From a virus, in IMG/VR virus record IMGVR_UViG_3300025853_000441, positions 1 through 29,861 of that record: a stretch of 29,861 nucleotides of DNA; one strand, given 5' to 3'. The notes below the pieces were generated by a model, which was given only the letters and a program-made list of their open reading frames with translations, had not been told where the DNA came from and did no database searches. Positions within the stretch are counted from its first letter, which is position 1. The number at the start of each line of letters is the position of its first letter. The translations under genes were made by a program, and so were the position numbers. Positions 13,257 through 29,861 of the stretch are shown one piece after another.

Positions 13257-13586
13257 TCAGGCCCAGACTCTTGCTGGGGTGTTAGGGGTTACGGCATAAG
13301 CTTCCAAGGCAGTAGTGTCCTCGCCAGGAAGCGCTCTGACATTGACGTGGTAGAGCGGGCTGTAGACTGGGGCAACTAACTCCTCGCCCGTCTCAGGGTC
13401 ATACTGGCCAACCTGCTCAGCAATGAGGGGCAGGGTGTCAATGTTGCGGAAGTTGGGCCTCAACTCAGTCTCAGTCACCACTGGGTTTTCTGGGTCAGTG
13501 TTGTCCCAGGCAATAGGTGTGTCTGTGTAGAGCACACCCTCAGCAGTGGCTTTGTCTGGGAATGCTAGGTAGTAATCTGTGAACAT
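13257..13586 (-). CDS. small conserved tail-region protein
   Basis: The protein has 109 residues beginning MFTDYYLAFPDKATAEGVLY, with an RPNFRNIDTLPLIAEQVG core and a final segment SPLYHVNVRALPG. Proteins of this pattern (aromatic start, NID, then a HVNVR end) occur beside tail fibre genes in many phages and lack a known function. It lies between the 613-residue fibre gene and the holin-like gene. Base usage here looks like the rest of the genome, so the foreign-looking fibre cassette seems to end just before it. Confidence 0.6.
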   Translation of the reverse strand: MFTDYYLAFPDKATAEGVLYTDTPIAWDNTDPENPVVTETELRPNFRNIDTLPLIAEQVGQYDPETGEELVAPVYSPLYHVNVRALPGEDTTALEAYAVTPNTPARVWA

Positions 13587-13609
13587 AGATTGAGTGTCTG
13601 TTGCTAGAA

Positions 13610-15451
13610 TCAGGATGTGAGGGCAGCGGCGTTAGTCGCGCTTACCGGTTCAGAAAAAACTGCTACCCGTTTGATGTGGCCGTTTAGGTGATTGCCACTT
13701 GTGTTCAGCACCCCCAGATGTATTTGAGACATTGCTGGAATATTTAAATCGGTGTCGGTTGAACCAATCTGCGAGCCGTTCACGTAATACTTGGCCTCGG
13801 TCGGACCAAACGAAACACATTGCTTATGGTATGTGTTTGCTGTAAACGCGCCACCAATCATGTTTGCCACCGCCGTGCCACCGCTTTTGATTTCCGTTCG
13901 AAAATTTGAGCCAATGCCAAACATCTGAACGATGTTTGAATTCGTCCCGTCATCAACCGAAAACACACCGTTGTATGTGAGTATGGCGTTCCGGCTTGCC
14001 TCGGCATACAACGTGCCACCGCCGTTATCGAACAGGTCCGAGCTAACCACTGATAACGACTCAGCTGCTCTGGTGGTGGCCGAGCCGTTGCTTGAAATCA
14101 GCGAACTCGCATGACTGGCATTGGCCTCAATCTGAATGCCCCATAATAAAACTCCGCTGTAGCTATCGCCGCTATACGTGAACGACCCGTTCGCGTTGGC
14201 GAGATACAACGTGATTTGCCCAACACCAGATGCCTGAGCAGTGCGAGTCGCAATGCAGCGATACCAACCGTTGCCGCAACTTTCGATGGACGCAGTGATG
14301 TCGCTATCAGTCGTCCCGACTGCCCCGTTTTCAACGTCAAAGTACACGTCATCGCCGGGAAAAACTCCGTCGGATGTTACAGAAAAACGCAGCTTAACAT
14401 GAGTTCGTCCCGCAGCTTTTGCGTAAAAACTAATCGTCTGAGGTGTGGCCCCTCCAGAGCTATAGGTCCAATACAAGCTATGGTCCGTGTTAGGAGAGCT
14501 TGAGTCATCTCTCAGCAAGTCTGCGGTCAATGTACCATCTGGCGCGATGGCTACATTGGAATCTCGGTTAGACTGGTATGCCGAGAAAAACGACTGAGTG
14601 ATGTCAGAGCTATAGGGCGCTAAGTTGGTGCTGGCCCCCTCAATGAGAATTCCGAGACTCGTACCGGCTGATTGCCCATCAGTTGAGTAATCAAAGCGGC
14701 CCACGTTGTTTGATTTACTGACCAAACTAGGGGCATACTCCCGATGAATTTGGGTTGTGGTGGCGTTGTAGTCAGTCGCCCCAGTTGTCGAGAGGCTGGC
14801 AAATGCAACGTCCAGCGAGCTAGAGCCATCGCCAGTGTATAAAACCAAACCGTAATTGTTCGACGCGGGTGTTGCCGCATCGCCCAACGATATGGTGAAA
14901 GACGTGGCGGTAGTAGCTGTCGCTTTAAAAACGCATTTGTAGTAGCCATTGCCAGACGCAGTCTGGGTGGCTGACAAATTAGTCAGCGTGCTGGAAGCCC
15001 CGTTGGATGTATGGGTAGCCCCACCAGCTAGGTCAAACGTAGCTAGGCCAGCCCCAGTTGACGATGCGGACGTGGCAATCGTTAGATTTAAATATCGCGA
15101 CCCAGCGTTGCGTTTAGCGTAGACGGTTAACGCCAGCTCACCATTGGTTGCAATTGACTGGGCGATTCGGTGAAAATTTGTCGCACTATCCTCCAACAAC
15201 GTAAACCCGCTCGTCCCACCAGACGGGTCAGTCTGACCTCCGGTTCTTGAGGTCAACCCCTGACTAAACCACGTAGTGTCAAAGTCACTCGACTGGAGGA
15301 GGAGGTTGTCGCTGGAGAGGTGTTTTGAACCGTCCCACACGTTGGCAGTGCTAGCTCTGGTGAAAGTTGCCCGTGGGTCAATGCGGCCACCGTTGGCAAA
15401 GTCCGCTTGGAACACGGGCCTCTGTGCTGGGAAGTTGTCGCTATAGGCCAT
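13610..15451 (-). CDS. tail spike/fibre protein with carbohydrate-binding-like repeats and LamG-like end
   Basis: This is a 613-residue protein. The N-terminus (NFPAQRPVFQADFANGGRID) resembles head or tail spike attachment regions. Two beta-sandwich units share the hallmark GNGYYKCVFKAT and GNGWYRCIATRT, typical of carbohydrate-binding-like phage spike domains. The C-terminal 130 residues (GTLYAEASR...NGHIKRVAVFSEPVS) read as a LamG/concanavalin-type fold. It probably recognises a surface glycan. The DNA has visibly more CpG and different codon choice than the flanking genes, indicating recent acquisition. Confidence 0.8.
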   Translation of the reverse strand: MAYSDNFPAQRPVFQADFANGGRIDPRATFTRASTANVWDGSKHLSSDNLLLQSSDFDTTWFSQGLTSRTGGQTDPSGGTSGFTLLEDSATNFHRIAQSIATNGELALTVYAKRNAGSRYLNLTIATSASSTGAGLATFDLAGGATHTSNGASSTLTNLSATQTASGNGYYKCVFKATATTATSFTISLGDAATPASNNYGLVLYTGDGSSSLDVAFASLSTTGATDYNATTTQIHREYAPSLVSKSNNVGRFDYSTDGQSAGTSLGILIEGASTNLAPYSSDITQSFFSAYQSNRDSNVAIAPDGTLTADLLRDDSSSPNTDHSLYWTYSSGGATPQTISFYAKAAGRTHVKLRFSVTSDGVFPGDDVYFDVENGAVGTTDSDITASIESCGNGWYRCIATRTAQASGVGQITLYLANANGSFTYSGDSYSGVLLWGIQIEANASHASSLISSNGSATTRAAESLSVVSSDLFDNGGGTLYAEASRNAILTYNGVFSVDDGTNSNIVQMFGIGSNFRTEIKSGGTAVANMIGGAFTANTYHKQCVSFGPTEAKYYVNGSQIGSTDTDLNIPAMSQIHLGVLNTSGNHLNGHIKRVAVFSEPVSATNAAALTS

Positions 15452-15454
15452 CGC

Positions 15455-15796
15455 TTATGCCTTGGTTGCTGTTGTCGAAGTTGGCTGAAACGATGATAAC
15501 CCAGAAGCTGGTTCGTCGGCATTAGCGTCTGATTCTGGCTCAGTTGCCATAGCAGCAGCATCAGCGGCTTTCTTCGCTTCCCAGTCAGCTTTGACTTGGT
15601 CCGTGAACACTGCATTGCAGATGGCTTGCACGTTAGGCTCGGCCTGACTCCAGTCTGAGTCTGGGTGCATCACGCAACGCTCAAACGAGGCAGCGAGTTC
15701 GTTGCCGTCTTCGACAACGCTGATGCGTTTGCGGCACTGAACGGCGTATGGAGGGACAAATTCGATTTTGTCGCACTTAATAATTTTCTCAATCAT
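15455..15796 (-). CDS. small protein of the fibre cassette, possible fibre chaperone
   Basis: The protein has 113 residues from the ATG at 15796; a TTG at 15823 would add nine. The first half (IEKIIKCDKIEFVPPYAVQC...HPDSDWSQAEPNVQAICNAV) resembles small proteins encoded next to phage fibres. The second half is an alanine/glutamate-rich tail that may be flexible or helical. It is sandwiched between two fibre genes and shares their unusual base usage, so it probably moved with them. A fibre-assembly role is plausible. Confidence 0.6.
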   Translation of the reverse strand: MIEKIIKCDKIEFVPPYAVQCRKRISVVEDGNELAASFERCVMHPDSDWSQAEPNVQAICNAVFTDQVKADWEAKKAADAAAMATEPESDANADEPASGLSSFQPTSTTATKA

Positions 15797-15845
15797 AGTA
15801 GTAGTTTTGGTGGTCCGTCCCAATCATCCGATTGGGATAAATTGG

Positions 15846-17066
15846 TTAGGAGGTGGTGTAGGTGACGGAAATCATCACATTGTTTTGCTGGCCAGCGGCT
15901 GTGTTCAGGTCTGACACGTTGCCAGCACTCACAGGGCCGCTAATTGATGTAGAGCGGTTGGCCAGTATGAGATAGCTAGTCCCGTCCTGAGTGTAGCCCC
16001 CAGCGGGTTGACCTATCCAGTTGACAGCATAGCCGACCGCAACTGCATTGAAGCCAATCGCAGAAAATGGCAGCCCAGTAATCGTCACAGGCCCGCTGCC
16101 CCCAGAGGTGTTCAGCCCGTTTGTGTTAATGTAGCACGTAGCTATAACCCTGTTGCCAATTTTGGTGTATCTAGCGCTGGTCACCACCATTGTGATTGAG
16201 GTGAATGAGCCGGACTGTGGCGCAAATACTGGACTCCAAGTGCCAGTCTCGTAATCATCGAGCAACTCTGAGGTAGCTCCGGGTGCATTAGCGTTAGACC
16301 CGAAATCAATTGCTGTCCCATTGGCGACTAGGTTGCCCGATGAGTTGATGGTCCAGCGAGTTGCCATTGTCCCACCACTGTCTTTGGTGAGAAATTTAAT
16401 CTGCCCCTCGTATATGTTGCCGCCAGTCGCCGCTTGAATTCTGGCGATGTCGAAGCCACTCGAATTGGTGTTTTTCCAGTTGATTGACTGGACATCTGTA
16501 TTAATCGAGCTGGGAACTTGAAGCTGAATATCGCCAGAGTCGACTGTCAGCTTATGGCTCGGCGAGGATGTCCCGATGCCGACTCGGCCCGATGAGTCCA
16601 CTGCCAAGCCAACATTTGAGCCAGTGGTCAAAAACGCATTATTTACGCCTTTGACGACAATGTTGCCCCCCATCCGAATCTGCGTGTCAGCATACGGTCC
16701 CTGTATGGTCGATTCGTCGGCGGTTAGGTGAATGCAGTCATTTGTTGCATCTGTGATTGTCAGCCGTGCATCAGTTGGGCTGGCGTTTAAGCCAGCGTTT
16801 TCGCCCTGTAATTTAGCAACTGATATGCCCTCAGACGATTGGTAGGCCATATCGCCCAGCATACCATTGACGGGTATTTCATTGGGTGCCGTCCCTACAT
16901 CTGCTTGCACCAACCCCTCAGCGTCTGGGCTGACCTCTAGGGCTGTGCGTATGGCTGACTTGTCTGAGCCTGTGGGTGGTTCCTCATCCAGAAACCTAAC
17001 AAGGCGACCTTTCAGCCTGACTAATGAACCGTCCTCCTTATGGACAAAGAATTTCTCGCTTGGCAT
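15846..17066 (-). CDS. tail fibre protein, chimeric
   Basis: The protein has 406 residues. The N-terminal 70 or so (starting MPSEKFFVHKEDGSLVRLKG) look like the tail-attachment part and have the genome's normal base usage. From about residue 80 on, sequence and base usage change. The middle contains the fibre motif SSGRVGIGTSSPSHKLTV known from many marine phages. The C-terminus from TGTWSPVF is a beta-sandwich tip domain. It likely forms a trimeric fibre that binds the host. The change of composition inside the gene suggests replacement of the distal part by recombination. Confidence 0.8.
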   Translation of the reverse strand: MPSEKFFVHKEDGSLVRLKGRLVRFLDEEPPTGSDKSAIRTALEVSPDAEGLVQADVGTAPNEIPVNGMLGDMAYQSSEGISVAKLQGENAGLNASPTDARLTITDATNDCIHLTADESTIQGPYADTQIRMGGNIVVKGVNNAFLTTGSNVGLAVDSSGRVGIGTSSPSHKLTVDSGDIQLQVPSSINTDVQSINWKNTNSSGFDIARIQAATGGNIYEGQIKFLTKDSGGTMATRWTINSSGNLVANGTAIDFGSNANAPGATSELLDDYETGTWSPVFAPQSGSFTSITMVVTSARYTKIGNRVIATCYINTNGLNTSGGSGPVTITGLPFSAIGFNAVAVGYAVNWIGQPAGGYTQDGTSYLILANRSTSISGPVSAGNVSDLNTAAGQQNNVMISVTYTTS

Positions 17067-17393: not shown

Positions 17394-18328
17394 GCTCTGC
17401 CGTAGTAAGGGTAGAGGAGGCTTGAGAGTTCCCCATACTTGTAGTTGACCCACTCTTGCACCACCTCGAATTTGCCACCTTGCACCTCATGAATGACTGG
17501 GGCCTCTTTAAACCAATAGCTCTTGTCTGCAGCAGACGCTCCCCAGAATGTGTTTGCAATGTCACCTATGAGGGCATACTTGCTGACACTGGCAATGCTG
17601 TTGTCTGTAATGTATGCAACTACCTCAGGGGTGGTCCATTGAGACTCTACTTGAAAATGGCTCAAGCTGAGGTTTGTGTTTCCTGGCACCACCTTTGTGT
17701 TCCTCAGAATGTAGCGTGAGGTTTCATAGGTGTCTTTTCCAGCAAGTAGCATGAGGACTAGGTCTAGGGCAATTTGCTTTTGTGCGTCACTCAAACCGCC
17801 ATAGACATTCACTCCAGTGTCCCACTCCTTCAGTTTGTCGTGCAAGTCCACCTTGGACTCGTCCTTTGTGTTGGACTCAAAGTTGGCTTGCACTGCTGCA
17901 AGGTAGGCCTCCACTGCAGTTCTAATGCGGTATTTTGTGCCCCTCAATGTGGAGGCTGAGTTGTTGCTAGAAGTGTAGACCTGCCTGCTGTCGTCCAATG
18001 AGTCAAAATATGGGTGCTCCCAAATGTTTGCTTGGTATTTGCTTGGCTGCAGTGTCCAAGTGTCAGTCTCTTCCTGGTAGGACTGGACGTTTGCGTCTGT
18101 GTTGTCCTCTGCTGCAAAGCTGACTTCCAGCACCCCATATCCACCAGCCTCCTGTCTTGCGTCTATTCTGGAGGCATTCTGGACATATGCAGAACCGTTG
18201 AGGGCTGCCTCTACGTTGGCCCAGGTGCCCTTGTAGCGGTAGGTGGACTCCCAGCCTGTGGCTTGAGTCCATGACCTGTTCTCACTCTCCAGAGTCAGGG
18301 CTGAAGTCCCTTTCAGTATGACACTCAT
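17390..18328 (-). CDS. distal tail / baseplate-like protein
   Basis: The protein has 312 residues. It follows the tape measure gene with an ATGA overlap, where distal tail or baseplate proteins are encoded. The first residues MSVILKGTSAL resemble the MSKILKG-T/S-A start of the two tail-tube-like proteins, hinting at a shared tube-type fold. The middle is helical (YLAAVQANFESNTKDESKVD; DAQKQIALDLVLMLLAGKD) and the end is aromatic (VQEWVNYKYGELSSLLYPYY). No named family is recognised. Confidence 0.65.
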   Translation of the reverse strand: MSVILKGTSALTLESENRSWTQATGWESTYRYKGTWANVEAALNGSAYVQNASRIDARQEAGGYGVLEVSFAAEDNTDANVQSYQEETDTWTLQPSKYQANIWEHPYFDSLDDSRQVYTSSNNSASTLRGTKYRIRTAVEAYLAAVQANFESNTKDESKVDLHDKLKEWDTGVNVYGGLSDAQKQIALDLVLMLLAGKDTYETSRYILRNTKVVPGNTNLSLSHFQVESQWTTPEVVAYITDNSIASVSKYALIGDIANTFWGASAADKSYWFKEAPVIHEVQGGKFEVVQEWVNYKYGELSSLLYPYYGRA

Positions 18329-19176
18329 TTGCTCATTCGGCTGACCCCGTCAGCAATGTTTTTGAGGGCTCCATTGTTTTCCCGTTCCTGCTTCTTCCTC
18401 TCCAACTCGTTTTCCATTTGCATGGTTCTCATGGTGTTGCCCGAAAAGAGGTTGGAAAGCATTCCAAGAGGTGTCCCAGCTTTGCCCAGCAAATCCCAAG
18501 TGCCTGACAGGAAATCAGCCCCAAGTCCCTTGAGGCCCTGCAGCCATGAGTTCAGCATTTCTGCTGTGTCTGCCAGGAGTCTTATGTCCTCGCTCTTCCA
18601 CAGGACTTGCCCCTGGCTTATGTTGTTGAACTTGCCTTGAGTCAGTGCTGCCGTTAGCTCAGCCCCTGGGTCACTCATTAAGTCATCCAAGTCAGCCAAA
18701 ATTTGCCCCATTCGCCCTGTCTCTTGTCCTGCTTCATTAACTGCCTGGGCGAAGCTTTGAAACATTTCTACAGGGGACTTGTCTCTCAGGTCGTCGAGCG
18801 TGAAGCCATAGCGCTCAAACACAGCAAGCCACGACTTGCTGCCGTTGAGTGCTTCATGCTGTTTGACTGCTAGGTCTTTGACTGCGTCATAGAACCTGTC
18901 CACGGGCATTCTGGCTGAGTTGGCTGCTGCAGCCATTTTCTGGTAGGTGTCCGTGTCCGTGTCGTAGGTAATGGCAGCGTCTCTTATTTGTGCTGCGTTG
19001 GTGTAAAGGTTGCTTATTCCTTTAGCAATGGACTCCACAGCCATCATTCCAGCAAACTGTCCAGCAAAGCCTTTAGCGCTTTCCTTGACATAGTTGTTCA
19101 TGCCCGCCCTCATTTTCTTGATGGAGGAGTTCCATGAAGAAATGTCGAGGAAGACTTTGGAAAATATGTTAGGCAT
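18325..19176 (-). CDS. short tape measure protein
   Basis: The protein has 283 residues from the ATG at 19176, preceded by AAAGG. Upstream in-frame codons overlap the previous gene and look unrelated. An N-terminal SKVFLDISSWNSSIKKMRAG segment, a glycine/alanine membrane-like stretch (FAGQFAGMMAVESIAKGI), then TDTDTYQKMAAAANSARMPVDRFYDAV and a helical body are typical of tape measure proteins. At about 1.5 angstrom per residue the tail would be only about 42 nm. The order (tube, chaperone-like protein, tape measure, distal tail) fits a siphovirus. Confidence 0.8.
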   Translation of the reverse strand: MPNIFSKVFLDISSWNSSIKKMRAGMNNYVKESAKGFAGQFAGMMAVESIAKGISNLYTNAAQIRDAAITYDTDTDTYQKMAAAANSARMPVDRFYDAVKDLAVKQHEALNGSKSWLAVFERYGFTLDDLRDKSPVEMFQSFAQAVNEAGQETGRMGQILADLDDLMSDPGAELTAALTQGKFNNISQGQVLWKSEDIRLLADTAEMLNSWLQGLKGLGADFLSGTWDLLGKAGTPLGMLSNLFSGNTMRTMQMENELERKKQERENNGALKNIADGVSRMSK

Positions 19177-19741
19177 TTGCTTTTTGCCTTTCTGCTTGCA
19201 GGCGCTCCAGCTCAGCAATACCTGCCGCAAGTTGCCCGTCTATTATTTTGGCACCCCCGTGCTGCTCGTTGTATGCCAAGCAGTCCCACATGAGCTGCAA
19301 GAGCCCTGAGTCCATCATTTCTGAGGGAGTGTAATTCAGTTTGCTCAGAGCAACTGTCCTGAGTGTTTGCAATACAGGTGCCCCGTATTTTGCCCCAGTG
19401 GCATGTCCTTTGCCTTCAACCTCTAAGAGTTCTGGCAGTTGCATGTTGCTCTGAATGTAGACAAGTGCCTCAGCAAGCGCCTTGGTTCTGTTTTTTGGCA
19501 TTGGCTTCCTGGTGTAATACCATTGCCCAAGCGGGCTCAGGAACCAATCCAACCAATTGCAACCACTCTTGAAGTCCCGTTGGCAAATGCCAACAAACCC
19601 CCAGAACTCTAGGGGTGTCAGAATTTCAGAAATACCAACTCGCTCAAGCAGCACCGCATGTCCATAGGTCAAAGCCTTAAGCTTCTGTCCACCTACGTAG
19701 ACAGGCCCAGGCACTGCTGCTGCTGCCCAAGTGGAGGACAT
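19169..19741 (-). CDS. tail assembly chaperone-like protein
   Basis: The protein has 190 residues from the ATG at 19741, which overlaps the tube-like gene's stop as TAATG. It lies between tail tube and tape measure, the conserved position of tail assembly chaperones (gpG/gpGT in lambda). The sequence is mostly helical with LKALTYGHAVLLERVGI at the start and a charged helical end (IAELERLQAERQKANA). No slippery sequence for a programmed frameshift was obvious by eye. The assignment rests mainly on position. Confidence 0.6.
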   Translation of the reverse strand: MSSTWAAAAVPGPVYVGGQKLKALTYGHAVLLERVGISEILTPLEFWGFVGICQRDFKSGCNWLDWFLSPLGQWYYTRKPMPKNRTKALAEALVYIQSNMQLPELLEVEGKGHATGAKYGAPVLQTLRTVALSKLNYTPSEMMDSGLLQLMWDCLAYNEQHGGAKIIDGQLAAGIAELERLQAERQKANA

Positions 19742-20169
19742 TAGTTGGTCACGTTTTCGTATTCGATTGCCGCAATGGTCCACTCAGCGTAGTTGCTGCT
19801 GGACCTTGTTTTTTCGGCGCTGGTTATAATGTAGTTGCCCGACCCGTCATCCACCTCAGCCCACTCAGTCAGGTCAATGTCTAGCGACTGGCCCACCAGG
19901 AAGGTGGTGGCAAAGTTGCTGTCTGCGTTGCTTACATCAGTGCCGCTTACAATGCCTGTCAGGTTGAGCACTTTGCGCTGGTTGTAGCTACAGTGGGAAA
20001 TGACTTCCCCGTTGCTGTTAGTTGCAGTGTTAGTGTCTCCCTCATAGCTGAGCCTTAGCTCAGTTGGGAAAATGGAAATTGCTGTGCCCCCGTTAATGCT
20101 GACACTGAGGGCTGTGCCGTCTGTCTTTGTGCCGTAGGTAAAGGCACTACCTTTGAGAATTTTGCTCAT
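19741..20169 (-). CDS. tail-tube-like protein, second copy
   Basis: The protein has 142 residues. It is clearly paralogous to the upstream 189-residue protein: both start MSKILKG, share LRLSYEGD, NSNGEV or NSDGEV, RKVLNLTGIV and the final EKTRSS/EKTRSA...YAEW/FAEW block. Beta-rich, position-conserved proteins before the chaperone and tape measure are usually tail tube subunits. This copy lacks an insertion of about 40 residues present in the other and is probably the more canonical tube subunit. It overlaps the chaperone-like gene by one base. Confidence 0.7.
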   Translation of the reverse strand: MSKILKGSAFTYGTKTDGTALSVSINGGTAISIFPTELRLSYEGDTNTATNSNGEVISHCSYNQRKVLNLTGIVSGTDVSNADSNFATTFLVGQSLDIDLTEWAEVDDGSGNYIITSAEKTRSSSNYAEWTIAAIEYENVTN

Positions 20170-20183
20170 TGAATGTCCTTGGT

Positions 20184-20753
20184 TTAATTGTTCGAGTCGT
20201 CAGCGTTGTTTGCCCCGTCATAGTCAATCGGAATATGTTCCACTGCTGTTATGCTCCACTCTGCAAAGTTGCCCGCTGACCTAGTTTTTTCGGCACCAGT
20301 TATGTGGAAGTCCCCATAGCTAGGGGCACCATGCACACCTCCTGGGTTACTGGTAGAGCCCCAGCCAGCGCTCCCTGACTTGTTGACCTCAGGCCATTCA
20401 TTGTTTGACCCGTAGCTTATCCATAAGTCACAGCCCACCTTGAATGGGGCAGAAAATGCGAGGTTGGCATTAGTCACACTGTCCACACCTCCAGCGTTTG
20501 GAGTCTGGCTAGTGGCAAGCACAATGCCCGTCAGGTTGAGGACTTTGCGGTGGTTGAAGCTGACCACACTGACCACTTCACCGTCACTGTTGTTAGCGGT
20601 GGCTTGGTCGCCTTCATAGGACAGGCGAATTTCTGAGGCATACATCTCGCCAGAAAATTTGACTCCTGAGTCATCTGAGACTCTGACCTGTATGACTCCA
20701 CCGCCTGTGCGGCTGCCGTATGAAAAAGCTGTGCCCTTAAGTATTTTGCTCAT
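20184..20753 (-). CDS. tail-tube-like protein, first copy with insertion
   Basis: This is a 189-residue paralogue of the next gene downstream. The shared framework (MSKILKGTAFSYG, EIRLSYEGD, RKVLNLTGIV, EKTRSAGNFAEW) is interrupted by a glycine/asparagine-rich insertion (about residues 125-150) and extended by an acidic asparagine-rich tail. The insertion and tail could form a surface decoration on the tube or mark a tube-terminal subunit. It starts at an ATG overlapping the upstream terminator-like gene. Confidence 0.7.
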   Translation of the reverse strand: MSKILKGTAFSYGSRTGGGVIQVRVSDDSGVKFSGEMYASEIRLSYEGDQATANNSDGEVVSVVSFNHRKVLNLTGIVLATSQTPNAGGVDSVTNANLAFSAPFKVGCDLWISYGSNNEWPEVNKSGSAGWGSTSNPGGVHGAPSYGDFHITGAEKTRSAGNFAEWSITAVEHIPIDYDGANNADDSNN

Positions 20754-22544: not shown

Positions 22545-22781
22545 TCAGGCGCTCTTCTTAGAGGCCTTTTTTTTGGGCGCTGGTGCTGCTTGGTCAGTGG
22601 AAAGTTTGGCCCGTTTCCAGTAAGGGGGCTTGCGGTAGACAAACAGGTCAACGAATTTGCCGCTGGGTTTTTCCCGCTCGGCTAGGAAAGCCTGCTTGCA
22701 CAGTTCAGCATCTCCAACCTCAAGGACCTGTGAGGACCCGTCTGGGAGAATGCCAATGGTTATGGAGGGTTTTTGAATCAT
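22545..22781 (-). CDS. small lysine-rich head-region protein
   Basis: The protein has 78 residues. An N-terminal strand-rich part (SITIGILPDGSSQVLEVGDA) and aromatic-basic middle (FVYRKPPYWKRAKL) are followed by an alanine/proline/lysine tail (PAPKKKASKKSA). It lies 15 bases after the second capsid gene and is the last gene before the strong terminator, so it is probably made in similar amounts to the capsid proteins. A head-stabilising or head-completion role is possible. Confidence 0.6.
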   Translation of the reverse strand: MIQKPSITIGILPDGSSQVLEVGDAELCKQAFLAEREKPSGKFVDLFVYRKPPYWKRAKLSTDQAAPAPKKKASKKSA

Positions 22782-22796
22782 GGTAATTAGTTTTCT

Positions 22797-23681
22797 TTAA
22801 GGTGTTAAAATTCGGACTCCGCAAGTGGTGTTGCCCAGGGCTACTCCCCAGAGGCATGAGACGCTGAGCATTGTCTTGCCTAGCGTTGCATCGTAGTGCT
22901 TGCGGAATTGGACAGGCAGGCCTGTCCTTGGTTCTACGGTTGAAAGCGTTTCCACCCTGCCTCCTGTTGAGGGCTCAGCCACATGGCGGGCTGCCATGAC
23001 TAGGGCTGAAGGGTGACAGGCAAAGCCTCTCAGGTTGTTGGCCGTGGGAATGCCTTGGTATTCCACAACCCCCATGCCAAAAACGTCCATAACCTCACCA
23101 GTCAGCAGTGGGTCCCTGCTGCCGTATTGGTCAGAATAAATCATAGAATCCTTCATGAGGCTGGCTGTGTAGTCCGTGCCCAGCAAAATGGACCTCATGG
23201 ACTTTGGTGCCCTGGCTGTGCTGAGCAACTGCTGCGCTTGGGCTATTTCGTCAGTGTCAAAGTCTGCTGCTGATTTGGTAATTGCTGTGGGGAAGTTGCT
23301 GGGGGTTATGAGGCCAAGCAACGAGTCAGCAAAAGACTTTGCAACTGCGTCCACGGCAGGCATGGCAAACACGTTGAAAATAAAATCAGCGCTTTTTGCC
23401 TTACTTACTTCGAGGTCTGAGAGGCCAATGACGAAACCTTTCATGTGGTCCAATGACACACTGACCTCAGTTGTCTCAATGTCTCCAGGGGAGTAACTAC
23501 CAGAAAGGTCCATGGCATTGAGTGCCAAAGGAATTCTAGTAGTTACCCCGTCCCCACGTTGCCTCACCCCGTCCGAAAAGTTGCGGGCGAAGTGGGCAAA
23601 CATGGGGAAGGAATACCCCAAGTGGTCCAGTGTTAAACTGGCCACCATGCTGAGGTTTAGACCCTGGAGTGAGTTAGCCAT
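22797..23681 (-). CDS. major capsid protein paralogue 2
   Basis: The protein has 294 residues. It aligns along its whole length with the upstream 303-residue protein: MAN-LQGLNL, LDHLGYSF, ARNFS, RGDGVTTR, DLSGSYSPGDI, a GLSDLEVSKA block, a central SILLGTDYTASLMKDS and the final YDATLGKTMLSVSCLWGVALG. Gene order after protease and scaffold makes both HK97-fold capsid candidates. Base usage is typical of this genome, unlike that of the first copy. Two expressed capsid paralogues could occupy different lattice positions (for example hexons and vertices). Confidence 0.75.
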   Translation of the reverse strand: MANSLQGLNLSMVASLTLDHLGYSFPMFAHFARNFSDGVRQRGDGVTTRIPLALNAMDLSGSYSPGDIETTEVSVSLDHMKGFVIGLSDLEVSKAKSADFIFNVFAMPAVDAVAKSFADSLLGLITPSNFPTAITKSAADFDTDEIAQAQQLLSTARAPKSMRSILLGTDYTASLMKDSMIYSDQYGSRDPLLTGEVMDVFGMGVVEYQGIPTANNLRGFACHPSALVMAARHVAEPSTGGRVETLSTVEPRTGLPVQFRKHYDATLGKTMLSVSCLWGVALGNTTCGVRILTP

Positions 23682-23686
23682 TTGGC

Positions 23687-24598
23687 TTATGCAGACTTAA
23701 TGCGCTGCAAGCTGTCGCCATGGCCTTTGGCTACACCGTATAGGCAGGCCACAGAAACCATGTGTTTCCCAGCAGTGGCGTCATACCAGCTTCTAAGCTG
23801 GAGCGGAGTCTGGCTGACGTCAGGTGAAGTCAAATTCAAGACTTGAACGTAGGAGTCAGCAGGAGCGGCAGGGAATCGGGCTGCTACAGCAATGGCGCTG
23901 GGGTGCAGAGCGAAGCCTTGCAGGTTTTCTGATGTCGTGGTTGCGGAAGCACCGTTAATGGCTCCAGTGTATTCCCACAGGTTCATGCCGTGGACACGGG
24001 TGCCAGAGTATTCCCGCACAGCTTCAGTTCCACCGTAGGTATTGGCTGCCCCGACCACGGAGTCCTTTTGGACGGCTGCATAGTAAGAGGGCGACAAAAT
24101 GACGTTTCGGTCACCCCTAGGGACCTTGCGTCCGCTCATGGCGCTTGAAATATCGGCAATATCGTCTGAATCGAATGCGGAAGCAGTTGAGGTCGTTGCG
24201 TTTGTGTAGTTCGAGGAAACCACCAGCTTGACAATGTCCGTGAAAATCGAATCAAGGACGGTTTCGTAGGCAGGCTGCAAGAAAATCGAAGTCAGCCACT
24301 GCACGTCTCCTGCAGCTCGGCTCACCTCGAAATCTGAAAATCCCATGCTATACCCACGGAGCTGGTTAAGCTGGACGGTTACAGACGTGCTATTTATGTC
24401 GTTTGCAGCGTAACCACCAGACAAGTCCTGTGCGGTTAGGCCTGCAGCGTAACGAGTCACGACAGACTCTCCACGTCCGCTAGGGTCACCTGTGAAGTCA
24501 CGGGCAACTGCTGAGAGAGGGGCAAAGGTTTGCCCCAAGAAATCGAGTGACAATTCGGCAATCGCCTCAAGGTTCACTCCCTGGATGTTGTTGGCCAT
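23687..24598 (-). CDS. major capsid protein paralogue 1
   Basis: The protein has 303 residues. It is the first gene after the scaffold, the canonical position of the major capsid protein. It shares with the next gene the blocks IQGVNLEAIAELSLDFLGQT, RGESVVTR, DLSGGYAANDI, GFSDFEVSRA, NLQGFALHPSAIAVAARF and WYDATAGKHMVSVACLYGVA. A UUCG-capped hairpin lies just upstream. Codon choice is richer in CpG and visibly different from the second copy, which may reflect selection for high expression or separate acquisition. It is probably the main shell subunit. Confidence 0.8.
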   Translation of the reverse strand: MANNIQGVNLEAIAELSLDFLGQTFAPLSAVARDFTGDPSGRGESVVTRYAAGLTAQDLSGGYAANDINSTSVTVQLNQLRGYSMGFSDFEVSRAAGDVQWLTSIFLQPAYETVLDSIFTDIVKLVVSSNYTNATTSTASAFDSDDIADISSAMSGRKVPRGDRNVILSPSYYAAVQKDSVVGAANTYGGTEAVREYSGTRVHGMNLWEYTGAINGASATTTSENLQGFALHPSAIAVAARFPAAPADSYVQVLNLTSPDVSQTPLQLRSWYDATAGKHMVSVACLYGVAKGHGDSLQRIKSA

Positions 24599-24617
24599 CT
24601 AAGTTTCTTTCTAATAA

Positions 24618-24636
24618 CCACTTACCGAAGTAGTGG
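24618..24636 (-). promoter_or_regulatory. cUUCGg-capped hairpin upstream of the first capsid gene
   Basis: On the minus strand CCACTAC and GTAAGTGG pair with one bulged A around the exceptionally stable C(UUCG)G tetraloop, immediately after the scaffold coding region and containing its stop codon. A 5' hairpin here could protect capsid mRNA. It lacks a good T-run, so it is not a typical terminator. Confidence 0.5.
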
Positions 24637-25044
24637 CTTTATGTTTTTGAGGTAGTAAGCCCTGCGCTCCTGGTTTCCTTCCAAGGTGCGGTAGTGCTGC
24701 CAGTGCTCTGCCTGGGTCAGCTCTGCGGTGGGCTCTGGTTCGGTTGCTTCCTCAACTGGCTCTGCCCCGCACTGGGCCACAATGTCTGCGGCCTGCTCGC
24801 TTGCGGTGGCCTGCGCCTGCTCAAGCAAAAGGTTGGTCTCTTCCAACAAGGCGACCTTGGTTTCAAGGGCCTTGAGGTCTTCTTCATGCTGTGCGCCAAG
24901 CTTGGCGACTTCTTCAGCATGTTTGCCTGCCAGCTCCTCTAGTTGAGCCTGCAGGGTTTGGTTGCCAGCAAGGGCCTCATCCAGCTTGGCGCTCAAGCTG
25001 TTTAGCTCCGTGTTGGCTTTGACTAAATCCAGAATGGTTTTCAT
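24622..25044 (-). CDS. coiled-coil capsid scaffold-like protein
   Basis: The protein has 140 residues from the ATG at 25044; upstream in-frame residues lie inside the protease gene and look unrelated. Residues about 8-100 are a long, alanine/glutamate/leucine-rich coiled coil (ELNSLSAKLDEALAGNQTLQ...), followed by an acidic hinge and a basic end (RRAYYLKNIKPLLR). This is the build of phage scaffolding proteins, and it sits between protease and capsid as Nu3 does in lambda. Unlike Nu3 it is a separate gene rather than an internal start in the protease gene. Confidence 0.75.
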   Translation of the reverse strand: MKTILDLVKANTELNSLSAKLDEALAGNQTLQAQLEELAGKHAEEVAKLGAQHEEDLKALETKVALLEETNLLLEQAQATASEQAADIVAQCGAEPVEEATEPEPTAELTQAEHWQHYRTLEGNQERRAYYLKNIKPLLR

Positions 25045-25060
25045 GTGTTTTTGGTATTGG

Positions 25061-25843
25061 TTAAAGGTTCGCCATGAGCGCCAAGACACTGTCCAGGTCA
25101 TTGACTACTGCGTCGGCTAGGGTTGGCACCGCTTCCATGCCCTCATAGGTCAAGCCAGTCATGACGGACTCTGGGGCTGTGCGTTTGAGGTTTATGTCCG
25201 ATTTGAACCTGTCATGCCACTTGGTGACATTGGCTTGAAGGCGGGCTTGCGCTTCCTCGGAGAGTGGCTTGAAGTCAGCCAAGTCCAGCTTGTTTTCACC
25301 TGAGCTGATGGCGTTGACTTTAAAGCCATTCATCGCCAAATGTTCAGACTGGTCCAGCAATGCAATGTAGACTCCCACACTGCCCACCTCTGCTGACTCG
25401 GACAAAATCACACTGTCTGCAGTGCTGGCTATCCAGTAGGCTGCAGAGGCTGCCATGCCCTCTGTGTAAGCCACCAAAGGCTTGCTGACGTTGCGAAGCT
25501 TTGCAGCCAGTTCTGGGAGGCCTGTAATGGTCCCACCAGGGCTGTCTATGTGGAGCAGAATGCTGGTGACGTTTGGGCTGGCTTCTGCCTCGGACACCTG
25601 CTGCCAGATGTCGTCATAATCAGTCATGCCCAGCATTTTCTCCCATGGGCCTAGCATTTTGCCCAGGGCGCCGTGAATGTGAATAATGGCTACTCCATCC
25701 ACCTCTTGGGGTGGTCGGTTTGGCTCAATCGTGTATTCCTCGTCCTCGTCAAAGTAAGCAGAGGCTTCAGTCAATGCAGAGTGGTAGTCTGGGCGAATTG
25801 CCCACACCTCATTCTGCAGTTTGTGGGTCAATCGGTGTTTCAT
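25061..25843 (-). CDS. head maturation protease, S49/SppA-type
   Basis: The protein has 260 residues from the ATG at 25843 (a TTG nine bases upstream is the alternative). Serine peptidase features are VAIIHIHGALG near 51-61, HIDSPGGTITG at 99-109, nucleophile S133 in EGMAASAAYWIAS, the GSVGVYIAL strand and the catalytic-lysine region K185 in SSGENKLDLADF. It corresponds to lambda gpC, which degrades the scaffold and trims head proteins during maturation. It overlaps the portal gene by 35 bases and precedes the scaffold gene. Confidence 0.9.
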   Translation of the reverse strand: MKHRLTHKLQNEVWAIRPDYHSALTEASAYFDEDEEYTIEPNRPPQEVDGVAIIHIHGALGKMLGPWEKMLGMTDYDDIWQQVSEAEASPNVTSILLHIDSPGGTITGLPELAAKLRNVSKPLVAYTEGMAASAAYWIASTADSVILSESAEVGSVGVYIALLDQSEHLAMNGFKVNAISSGENKLDLADFKPLSEEAQARLQANVTKWHDRFKSDINLKRTAPESVMTGLTYEGMEAVPTLADAVVNDLDSVLALMANL

Positions 25844-27269
25844 TGTCTGCAAAAACTGGGTTGGGTGTGCGTTGTGAGAGGAGGTGCATGGCAGTTTCCA
25901 TGCTCACCCCATACTCACTGGAAAGCCTCTTTGCCCGCTGGAGCAGGTCCACTGCCTCAGCCTCCACTTGGCCTCTGACTTCTTGCCAGTCCATGCCTAG
26001 CTCACCCACGTCCTGGGACATGGTTCTAAGGCCTAGCTTTATGGAGTCATGGTTGGACTTGGCCTCTCTACCTAAGTCCACAGTAATTCTTTTGGGTGTC
26101 TGCCAGCGCACTTTCCACCAGTTGTCTGAGGGTGGCAGGTCGCCCCGCTTAATCCCCCTAGCTATCACCCAGCTCCACACTCTGCTGCAGAGTTTGGTGG
26201 CTATGAGGTTTTGTCTCTCTTCAAAGCGGCGCTGGGCTTTCTCTAGGACAAAACGTGAGGCACTGCCTGTGCCCTTGGAAATGTCCCAGACAAACTCATA
26301 GGGTAGGCCTAGTCCTGTAGCCACTTCCCTGATGAGGTGCTCAATGAAGCCCACAAAAGTGGGGGAGGGGCGGTTGCTTGCGAATGACTCAATGGACTCT
26401 CCAATTTTGAGGCGTGGAATCATTCCAGGCTCAAAGGTCTGCCAAGGGAGGTCGCCAGTGTCTGCTGCTGAGTAGCCGTCCTCAATCAAAGCGCTGCCAT
26501 CGTCTACCACGCCACCCTGGCTTGTAATTGCCATGCCAATGGAGGCATTGAGTTTGGTCCCGACTAGCTCGAATTCCAACAAGTCGTCCATGTCCCTCAG
26601 GTGGGCAATGGCGTGGGCAAGGCTTGTGACACCTCTGAGCTGGCTGACCCGCTCTGGGTCATACATCAGGATGAAATTGTTTGAACTTATGCGGCGGTAG
26701 TCACTGTCCCCGTCCCTTACCTCATAGGCCACAGGCCTGCCTGCTGGACTAGTGTGGACACCGTCATGGGCCTTGGCGTCATACGTCTCAGACTCAATGC
26801 GGTGGGCCTCTACAAGCTGAAGCTGTGGGAAGCTGTTGCCAGTTCCCACCATTATGAGGCCAATGTCCCCGTCTATGTCCATGCGCCTAGACACTAGGCT
26901 CTGGAGTTGTCCAAAAGTGAATTGCCCTGTGACCTCTGCAATTTGACTCCATTGCTGAAAGTAGTCCTCATAGGCTTGGGCTTCTGCTGACTGGGCTTGA
27001 GGCCTCAGCCCTGAGCCCACTGAGTAGCGTGTCAAGTCTGACACTGCGCCTTTGACTAGCCCGTTATTGTTAAACAAATGGCGGGCAAACCCCATGAGGC
27101 TGCGCCTCTGGCTTCTGTTTAGGGTTTGCTTGGAGTCGCTGACCGTGTAGGGGACATAGGTTCTGTAGCGTCCCATCTCGGTGCCCCTGTAATGCCCACT
27201 AAAGCTGTTAGCTCTTTTCTTCTTGGGCGTCAGGTCTAGGACTCGCCCGTTGTGGTCGTAGAGTTCCAT
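25809..27269 (-). CDS. portal protein, lambda gpB family
   Basis: The protein has 486 residues. The start region with DSKQTLNRSQRRSLMGFARHLFNNNGLVKGA is typical of lambda-type portals, as are the VEAHRIESE, IMYDPERVSQLRGVTSLAHAI and GLGLPYEFVWDISKGTGSASRF segments. The portal forms the 12-fold ring at one capsid vertex, docks terminase and joins the tail. It is followed by the protease gene, with which it overlaps, and preceded four bases upstream by the gpW-position gene. Confidence 0.92.
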   Translation of the reverse strand: MELYDHNGRVLDLTPKKKRANSFSGHYRGTEMGRYRTYVPYTVSDSKQTLNRSQRRSLMGFARHLFNNNGLVKGAVSDLTRYSVGSGLRPQAQSAEAQAYEDYFQQWSQIAEVTGQFTFGQLQSLVSRRMDIDGDIGLIMVGTGNSFPQLQLVEAHRIESETYDAKAHDGVHTSPAGRPVAYEVRDGDSDYRRISSNNFILMYDPERVSQLRGVTSLAHAIAHLRDMDDLLEFELVGTKLNASIGMAITSQGGVVDDGSALIEDGYSAADTGDLPWQTFEPGMIPRLKIGESIESFASNRPSPTFVGFIEHLIREVATGLGLPYEFVWDISKGTGSASRFVLEKAQRRFEERQNLIATKLCSRVWSWVIARGIKRGDLPPSDNWWKVRWQTPKRITVDLGREAKSNHDSIKLGLRTMSQDVGELGMDWQEVRGQVEAEAVDLLQRAKRLSSEYGVSMETAMHLLSQRTPNPVFADNETPIDPQTAE

Positions 27270-27272
27270 GGA

Positions 27273-27524
27273 CTAACGTGAAAACCTTGCAAAGGTCATT
27301 CGGGCGGGTTTACTGCCTGTGGCTAGGCCCTTCTCATGCAGCACGTCTGTGAGTTGGGAGGCTAGTTCCTCAGTGGGCAAAACTAGCTCACGGGTGCCGC
27401 TTTGGGAGGCATTGGAGAAGGAGGTGGTGACTGCACCAGAAAGCACAGCGTCTGCCACTCTTTCCTTGAGTGTCAGAAGCCACGCATCAGTCTGGAGCCT
27501 TAAGAAGCTACGCAAGTCCCCCAT
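27273..27524 (-). CDS. gpW-position head-tail joining protein
   Basis: This is an 83-residue protein located between the large terminase and the portal genes, exactly where lambda encodes gpW. The sequence is helical at both ends (FLRLQTDAWLLTLKERVADA; EELASQLTDVLHEKG) around a serine-rich loop, and ends basic. Length and position fit a gpW-like connector, but the sequence match is not obvious by eye, so the call relies on gene order. Confidence 0.6.
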   Translation of the reverse strand: MGDLRSFLRLQTDAWLLTLKERVADAVLSGAVTTSFSNASQSGTRELVLPTEELASQLTDVLHEKGLATGSKPARMTFARFSR

Positions 27525-27545: not shown

Positions 27546-29270
27546 TCACTCATCCATCAGCAACTTGGCAATGCAGGCAGCCACCACCTGCATGCACTCA
27601 CAGTCCCAGGCATGGTTTGCCCTAAAAGACACCCAGCGCATTTCTGCCCTTCCGTGCTTGTCTATGACTTCCTTTTTGCGCTCAGAGTCCAGTTGCTTGG
27701 CATATTCCTCAGCCAGCTCAGGGTCCATTTTGCACACCTCCCACGGCTGGGCCTTGCCAGCCTTGAGGGCTGCCAAAATGTCTTTGGTGCTTGGGTTGCT
27801 CCAGCGGAAGACAGGAGGGGCTACTCTGCCAGTTGAGGACACCCTCGTGGGTTTGCTGTAAAGCCTGCGGATGGTTCGCCCGTTGCCAGTGTGGGCAAAG
27901 TCAACGCTGGGCTCCCCTCTTAAGCCTACCCAGCCAAACCTGCCACATTGGGCAAGGACTCTTGCCCTCTGGTAGCCCACGTCTAGGAATGTCCGTTGGG
28001 GGGCAACCTCAAACTCTTTGCGTAGTTCCTCCACCTCGTCAAACGAGCTGACCCGTCGAAATGCCAAGAGCCTTGAGGCACCGCCCTTGCTCCAGGCTCT
28101 GACTATGCAGAAAAACTCCTCTAGGTAGTTCTGACAGTCCACCGTCATGAATCGGGTGTGCTCGTCCTCCCATGCGTCCTCAGGCCTGTAAGCGTCACTC
28201 ACCTCAATCCTCTCGGTCTCCATATGGTTGGAAGGCTTCCAACTTTCGGCAAGCCTCAGTGTCACAAACTCCCTGAGGGGTTGTGTGTAGCCTGCAGCGG
28301 CATGTTGTTTAGCCTTGAGGAAGTCTATAACCAAGTCACTCCATGGCATGACGCTTGGAGGGAGTGTCAATTGGTTAAAGCTGAAGCTTCGCACCCGTGG
28401 GGTGGGGTTGTCATTGGTGGGCACATACCCACCCTTCACCATTTGCCTCCAGTTTGCCTCGGTGTTGCGGTGGGCGTGGTCGCAATGACTGCAGGCCATG
28501 GTGACAGTCTTAGCTACCTCCTCATAGTTCCACACACCTCCTGGCTTGGTTGTCTCGTTAGACTCCCACCTCATGCAATCGTAGAAGCTGGGGGCAAATA
28601 GCTTGCCACAGCTTTGGCACTTTAGGTGCCACACTTCACAGGTGCCGCTCCTGTATTCGGTGTCAAAGTCGTCCCCAACTAGCTCAGGGGTGGAGCTGAA
28701 CCAGTGCTTCCTGTTCCAGTAACGGGTTGTCCTCGCCTTGGCCCTGGCTAACATTCCAGGCCTCCATGCGCTGACCTCGTCACCGTAGAGAAATCGAATG
28801 CTCCATGAGCGCAAGAATGAGTTGTTGGCTGGGCCTAGCTTGAGGGTGCAGGAATGGAAGAAAACCTCACTTATGGTTTTCCTGTGCCTGTCGCTTGGCC
28901 ATTGGTCCTTGAGGGCAGGGCAGGACTCCAGAATGGGCTGCAGTCGCTCCTTCGAGTAGTCTTTGTAGGAGTCCTCGTCTTGGAAGGTGACAAGGTGGGG
29001 GCTGGGGTTTTGGCTTAGGCTGTAGGCAATAGCCACAGACATGGACACAGTCTTGCCTGTCTGTGCTGCACATGACATGACCACTGTCTGGTTGCCTGGG
29101 TCAGCGTGAGCAGCCAGTGGCTCCAGTAGCCATGGAGTCTCATCTGCTCTAAATTGCCCGCCATAGGGGGACTCCCTCAGCTTCACGTTGTCCAAGGCCC
29201 AGTCTGCTATGCCTCCAGCATTGCGCTCAGCCAGGGCTGACAGGACGCATTCGTCAACGAGTTTGTCCAT
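27546..29270 (-). CDS. terminase large subunit, lambda GpA family
   Basis: The protein has 574 residues. The ATPase has a Walker A variant CAAQTGKT (67-74), Walker B FLYGDE (160-165) and the SSTP coupling segment (192-195). A zinc-ribbon insertion has C218/C221 and C260/C263. The nuclease part has D378 (FMTVDCQ), D430 (FLDVGYQ) and D556 (NHAWDCE). GpA-type enzymes cut cos sites and package DNA by ATP hydrolysis. It overlaps the small subunit by 17 bases. The family predicts cohesive ends, in line with the terminal repeat near this locus. Confidence 0.95.
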   Translation of the reverse strand: MDKLVDECVLSALAERNAGGIADWALDNVKLRESPYGGQFRADETPWLLEPLAAHADPGNQTVVMSCAAQTGKTVSMSVAIAYSLSQNPSPHLVTFQDEDSYKDYSKERLQPILESCPALKDQWPSDRHRKTISEVFFHSCTLKLGPANNSFLRSWSIRFLYGDEVSAWRPGMLARAKARTTRYWNRKHWFSSTPELVGDDFDTEYRSGTCEVWHLKCQSCGKLFAPSFYDCMRWESNETTKPGGVWNYEEVAKTVTMACSHCDHAHRNTEANWRQMVKGGYVPTNDNPTPRVRSFSFNQLTLPPSVMPWSDLVIDFLKAKQHAAAGYTQPLREFVTLRLAESWKPSNHMETERIEVSDAYRPEDAWEDEHTRFMTVDCQNYLEEFFCIVRAWSKGGASRLLAFRRVSSFDEVEELRKEFEVAPQRTFLDVGYQRARVLAQCGRFGWVGLRGEPSVDFAHTGNGRTIRRLYSKPTRVSSTGRVAPPVFRWSNPSTKDILAALKAGKAQPWEVCKMDPELAEEYAKQLDSERKKEVIDKHGRAEMRWVSFRANHAWDCECMQVVAACIAKLLMDE

Positions 29271-29845: not shown

Positions 29846-29861
29846 GTGGTGAGCGGAAACC
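29846..29861. repeat. 16-bp terminal direct repeat, right copy
   Basis: This is identical to bases 1-16. Joining the ends over this repeat places the 3' end of the early operon about 145 bases upstream of the small terminase start, with no gene interrupted. Confidence 0.9.

Follow-up and report, generated by a model that had tools for sequence, protein, structure and literature searches.

Our data point, with moderate confidence, to an ancient tandem duplication of the capsid gene in a lineage of phages of about 30 kb, followed by long co-retention of both copies and a division of labour in which copy 1 would build the hexamers and copy 2 would serve at a low-copy position. The window, that is the whole stretch of DNA analysed, is an entire virus record of 29,861 bases. 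Its two ends share 16 bases (1-16 and 29846-29861), and the genome is therefore probably complete. The features of the head region are as follows.

27546-29270, minus strand: terminase large subunit, GpA type (PHROG 15, 9e-70; Pfam GpA_ATPase, 4e-34)
27273-27524, minus strand: small protein of 83 aa in the gpW (head-tail joining) position, assigned by position alone
25809-27269, minus strand: portal protein, lambda family (Pfam Phage_portal_2, 7e-56)
25061-25852, minus strand: head maturation protease, S49 family (PHROG 53, 1.7e-63; Pfam S49, 4.9e-21)
24622-25101, minus strand: scaffold-like protein of 159 aa, coiled, assigned by position and composition, with weak profile matches only
23687-24598, minus strand: MCP1 (copy 1), 303 aa, putative major (hexamer) HK97-fold shell protein (PHROG 283, 2e-22)
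23682-23686, minus strand: gap of 5 nt from the MCP1 stop to the MCP2 start, with no clear Shine-Dalgarno
22797-23681, minus strand: MCP2 (copy 2), 294 aa, putative minor or vertex-like shell protein, an HK97-fold paralogue (38% identity to MCP1; PHROG 283, 8e-24)
22545-22781, minus strand: 78-aa gene immediately past MCP2, its position kept in the clade that carries the pair

In reading order the terminase gene, the small gene, portal, S49 protease, scaffold-like gene, MCP1 and MCP2 are followed by head-tail and tail genes. Homologues of the scaffold-like gene are present at the same position throughout the pair clade. The sole tape-measure-like gene found in the window (18325-19230, minus strand) has a product of just 301 aa; a tail of that length would be very short.

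The first-pass annotation had described two full-length paralogues directly past protease and scaffold and had taken both for HK97-fold shell proteins, and this description holds. The two proteins align over their whole length (301 positions, BLASTP E 3e-67), and both match PHROG 283/267, 'major head protein', at the E-values listed above, which places both in a capsid family by sequence. Structure prediction was run for both. AF2 modelled each protein as a monomer from 41 homologues, with intermediate confidence (mean pLDDT 75.8 for MCP1 and 79.7 for MCP2). By Foldseek both matched HK97-fold capsids, the best being Douge gp8 (E 6e-14 for MCP1, 3e-16 for MCP2), and VIA-align to the P22 procapsid protein gave Z of 17.0 and 18.8, respectively. 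Overall the two models match P22, T7-like, HK97 and encapsulin shells with Z of 17-19. The fold was judged by the N-arm, E-loop, spine helix and A and P domains. Neither model has lost a domain, and that of MCP2 shows the HK97 fold at full length, E-loop, spine helix and A and P domains included, to which no domain has been added. MCP1 and MCP2 are thus both predicted to be HK97-fold shell proteins.

The gap between the capsid genes is 1-16 nt in the clade, 24 nt in one divergent pair (L091), and no promoter or terminator was seen between MCP1 and MCP2 in the window; it is therefore very probable that they are co-transcribed as one operon. MCP2 is mostly without a Shine-Dalgarno, which makes translational coupling to MCP1 probable; other genes of the same phage also lack one.

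Viral contigs were searched for the same tandem pair, and those with the capsid site visible were counted. All 68 of the 68 environmental contigs of the pair clade, window included, carry both copies in identical order; both are complete in 59 of them, giving 38 distinct protein pairs. The more distant relatives have a single copy (95 distinct contigs overall), in line with the earlier remark that most phages of this size use one. These single-copy loci include L019, L097-L107, L020-L026, phage P8625 and three Verrucomicrobiota MAG loci. A second profile scan found a single copy at 80 of 80 loci, at least 1.2 kb downstream being visible in 67; eight of the 80 were contigs already fetched, hence the figure of 95. 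All relatives that the scan of the genome collection turned up lay in Verrucomicrobiota MAGs and had a single copy; a prophage carrying both genes was not among them. The capsid pair is the mark of one clade.

A link between the 78-aa gene and the capsid duplication was rejected because many relatives with a single MCP also carry this gene. The window contains a second tandem paralogue pair, tail-tube-like by position (20184-20753 and 19741-20169, minus strand; 189 and 142 aa, 43% identity). This duplication is shared by the window's group, L047 and L058, most other relatives having a single gene, and its link to the capsid duplication was rejected as the distributions differ. In some distant relatives a ClpP-like protease, a scaffold-like region and the capsid lie in one ORF of about 770-830 codons (L020:4273-6732, L023:1310-3700, L024:4075-6564, L026:2445-4742).

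Among 92 capsid proteins placed in a tree, copies 1 and 2 of 37 pairs form separate clades (SH-aLRT 99 and 98), which indicates one old duplication with subsequent joint retention for all pairs except L091. The tree joins the two copies of L091 to each other. Its alternative placements gave p of 0.029 and 0.129 in the AU test, and about half of the diagnostic residues still sort as copy 1 versus copy 2. Identity between the copies falls stepwise, from 65-68% in the basal groups to 46-52% in the sister group and 38-41% in the window's group. Of 8 columns that distinguish the copies, the single-copy outgroup agrees with copy 1 at four and with copy 2 at none, which makes copy 2 the derived one. 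Copy 2 evolves faster in most comparisons, with L043/L048 and L054/L083 as exceptions in which it is slower. Amino-acid change is well under synonymous change in both copies (dN/dS 0.02-0.2 where measurable), and both are under purifying selection. A decaying second gene, which the first-pass annotation had considered, was rejected on account of this constraint and because both copies are intact wherever visible.

When the window is compared with L032/L015, identity in the flanks is for the most part 90-100%, but it drops to 66-83% over about 23300-24650. This stretch spans the end of the scaffold-like gene, MCP1 and the 5' half of MCP2, and is a recombination block by which capsid alleles are swapped.

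It had been noted that the first copy is visibly richer in CpG. This was borne out: MCP1 has 57 CpG sites and MCP2 28, with observed/expected values of 0.86 and 0.46 against 0.50 for the genome. In every examined member of the window's group copy 1 has a higher value (0.52-0.86) than its surroundings (0.3-0.5), and in the sister groups CpG is normal in both copies. CpG depletion is a trait of the window's group which copy 1 has partly escaped, and the difference between the copies fits expression tuning. The other proposed source of the difference, a separate acquisition of copy 1, was rejected by the capsid tree; the presence of the CpG excess in every examined member of the group also speaks against it. 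The depletion is genome-wide in the window's group and absent from the sister groups, and may perhaps reflect a change of host, or host methylation or restriction. A block at 13500-16800 has normal CpG (0.7-1.4) amid the CpG-poor genome (0.2-0.6). It holds the gene of a tail protein that has a LamG-like domain, together with adjacent genes, and is perhaps an exchanged host-recognition module.

The claim that the two genes use different codons stood in part. An omnibus test of synonymous codons found no significant difference between MCP1 and MCP2 (chi2 44.6, 41 df, p 0.32; permutation 0.33), whereas directed measures of high expression differ consistently across the clade. Two such measures were used, each set against the other genes of the same locus: the index P2, which scores pyrimidine-ending codons favoured in translation, and the choice of CGT/CGC at arginine positions, given as the fraction of poor arginine codons. 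In the window P2 is 0.58 for MCP1 over a background of 0.39, and that of MCP2 equals the background (0.39). The comparison was extended to 41 non-redundant pairs, whose rows share kinship, so that the counts are not independent trials. P2 minus the locus background was +0.138 in single-copy MCPs (positive in 77 of 79), +0.089 in copy 1 (39 of 41) and -0.023 in copy 2 (15 of 41), and the poor-arginine fraction minus background was -0.37, -0.26 and +0.01, respectively. The unequal signature has the same direction in all three sub-clades, the P2 excess being missing from copy 1 in L043 and L047. Copy 1 retains the high-expression codon signature of the single-copy relatives and copy 2 has lost it, in line with the earlier suggestion that the first copy was tuned for high expression.

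Codon bias reads expression and not position in the shell. The measure was calibrated on T4, Aeh1, Acj133, Margaery and phiAS4, in which gp23 has a P2 of 0.75-0.83, far over background, and gp24 is near background; this contrast of a strong signature in gp23 and none in gp24 parallels copy 1 and copy 2. By this proxy, calibrated on five T4-like phages, the two genes are apparently produced unequally, copy 1 at a high level and copy 2 near background. This yields a codon-usage rule, checked in T4-likes, by which a bulk shell gene and a minor paralogue could be told apart in metagenomes.

Copy 1 probably keeps the ancestral role of bulk production and hexamer building. Copy 2, which has diverged further and no longer shows the codon signature of a bulk protein, would take a low-copy site in that shell; the eleven pentameric vertices are the likeliest, like gp24 beside gp23 in T4. 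Both genes are very probably part of one operon, in which they come after portal, protease and scaffold. Heads of T=7 with a single portal vertex are usual at a genome size of about 30 kb, and for such a head the model gives an expected count of about 360 for MCP1 and 55 for MCP2. Both proteins would then be in the virion, the stoichiometry and vertex position of MCP2 being those that the model gives. The shell of hexons and vertices proposed in the first-pass annotation by analogy with T4 is thereby supported as an inference. In T4 the paralogous HK97-fold proteins gp23 and gp24 are thought to derive from gene duplication, gp23 being the major head protein that forms the hexamers and gp24 the pentameric vertex protein (PMC9958956). 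The T4 order portal-protease-scaffold-23-24 matches the head module of the window, where likewise two paralogues, born of duplication, are neighbours past protease and scaffold. However, T4-likes have genomes of more than 150 kb and prolate heads and the window phage has about 30 kb; and gp23 and gp24 align only partly, with 28% identity, whereas MCP1 and MCP2 align end to end and lie 5 nt apart. The vertex role is weighed against by single-copy relatives of like genome size, which manage without a separate vertex protein, and the split by the absence of a ratio-setting terminator between the genes, whereas Margaery has one.

The main rival is a mixed shell, in which both proteins would enter the same capsomers together, neither having a fixed place. 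The two-component Family 2B encapsulin of Streptomyces lydicus is built of shell proteins about 70% alike that mix freely (PMC12407261), and such adjacent HK97-fold paralogues give a precedent for mixed, irregularly tiled shells (PMC12407261). As here, its paralogous genes are adjacent in one operon. The probable co-transcription across a 5-nt gap and the 65-68% identity kept by basal pairs agree with mixing, which is nevertheless unlikely: in the 41 pairs copy 2 codons are at background and those of copy 1 high, as better fits a low-copy part, and the window copies are merely 38% identical, the copies of the clade having separate conserved residues. The encapsulin is a compartment of the cell that has no portal and packages no DNA, whereas the window has terminase, portal, protease and tail genes and does not encode an encapsulin of this type. 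Copy 2 could also be a low-copy virion or assembly protein elsewhere, such as a portal-vertex ring, a nucleation part or a head-size setter. Its background-level codon signature would suit any such role and it is conserved in all clade members, yet a full-length HK97 fold with no added domain argues for an ordinary lattice position and makes such a role quite improbable.

The first-pass annotation had also raised an alternative capsid, i.e. a shell made from either protein according to conditions or host. The presence of two complete capsid genes would allow it, as would the recombination block between relatives, by which capsid alleles do move. But the gaps between the genes measure 1-24 nt, in the window neither a switch nor a promoter or terminator was seen there, a lone copy was never found within the clade, and the codon signature is unequal in all sub-clades, so that this reading is very improbable. 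Duplicates of bulk proteins can be retained for dosage. Copies only 38-68% identical, of which copy 2 has lost the bulk codon signature, are the opposite of what dosage predicts, and a redundant duplicate kept for this reason is hardly to be expected. The division between hexamers and a low-copy site is the reading we prefer. The wider proposition, that two HK97-fold paralogues form a true mixed shell or else that a hexamer/vertex split evolved separately at about 30 kb and has left living intermediates, is a doubtful one.

The duplication appears to be separate from that of T4 and to lie within a PHROG-283-like capsid family, since its sequence relatives are single-copy capsids of the PHROG 283 type. 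When the phage collection was searched by tblastn with MCP1 and MCP2, P8625 and Gordonia VanLee were found and no T4-like phages; the T4-derived nanocage 7mh2 was among the fold-search matches. The nearest named relative of the capsid family is Verrucomicrobia phage P8625, from a Puniceicoccales host. P8625 and its environmental kin share the capsid family (33-40% identity), the gene order and a similar genome size with the window phage but have one capsid gene only. Mycobacteriophage Douge gp8 (8zdh, 8zdk), the best profile and Foldseek match among solved capsids, differs in being a single major capsid protein, the second named protein in the shell entry being gp113. The literature searched, which covers few subscription journals, yielded no description of a small siphophage whose HK97 MCP is duplicated; this lends weak support to novelty.

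In most tailed phages a single protein makes both hexamers and pentamers, and T4 is the textbook exception. The two-component HK97 shell would apparently have arisen separately in this clade, whose phages of about 30 kb are akin to Verrucomicrobiota phages. If true, a second shell protein would have evolved separately at about one fifth of the genome size of T4, and the intermediates at 65-68%, 46-52% and 38-41% identity would allow a step-by-step comparison. With its single-copy outgroups and its graded series of pairs, the clade would offer a small and tractable case of one self-assembling protein splitting into two.
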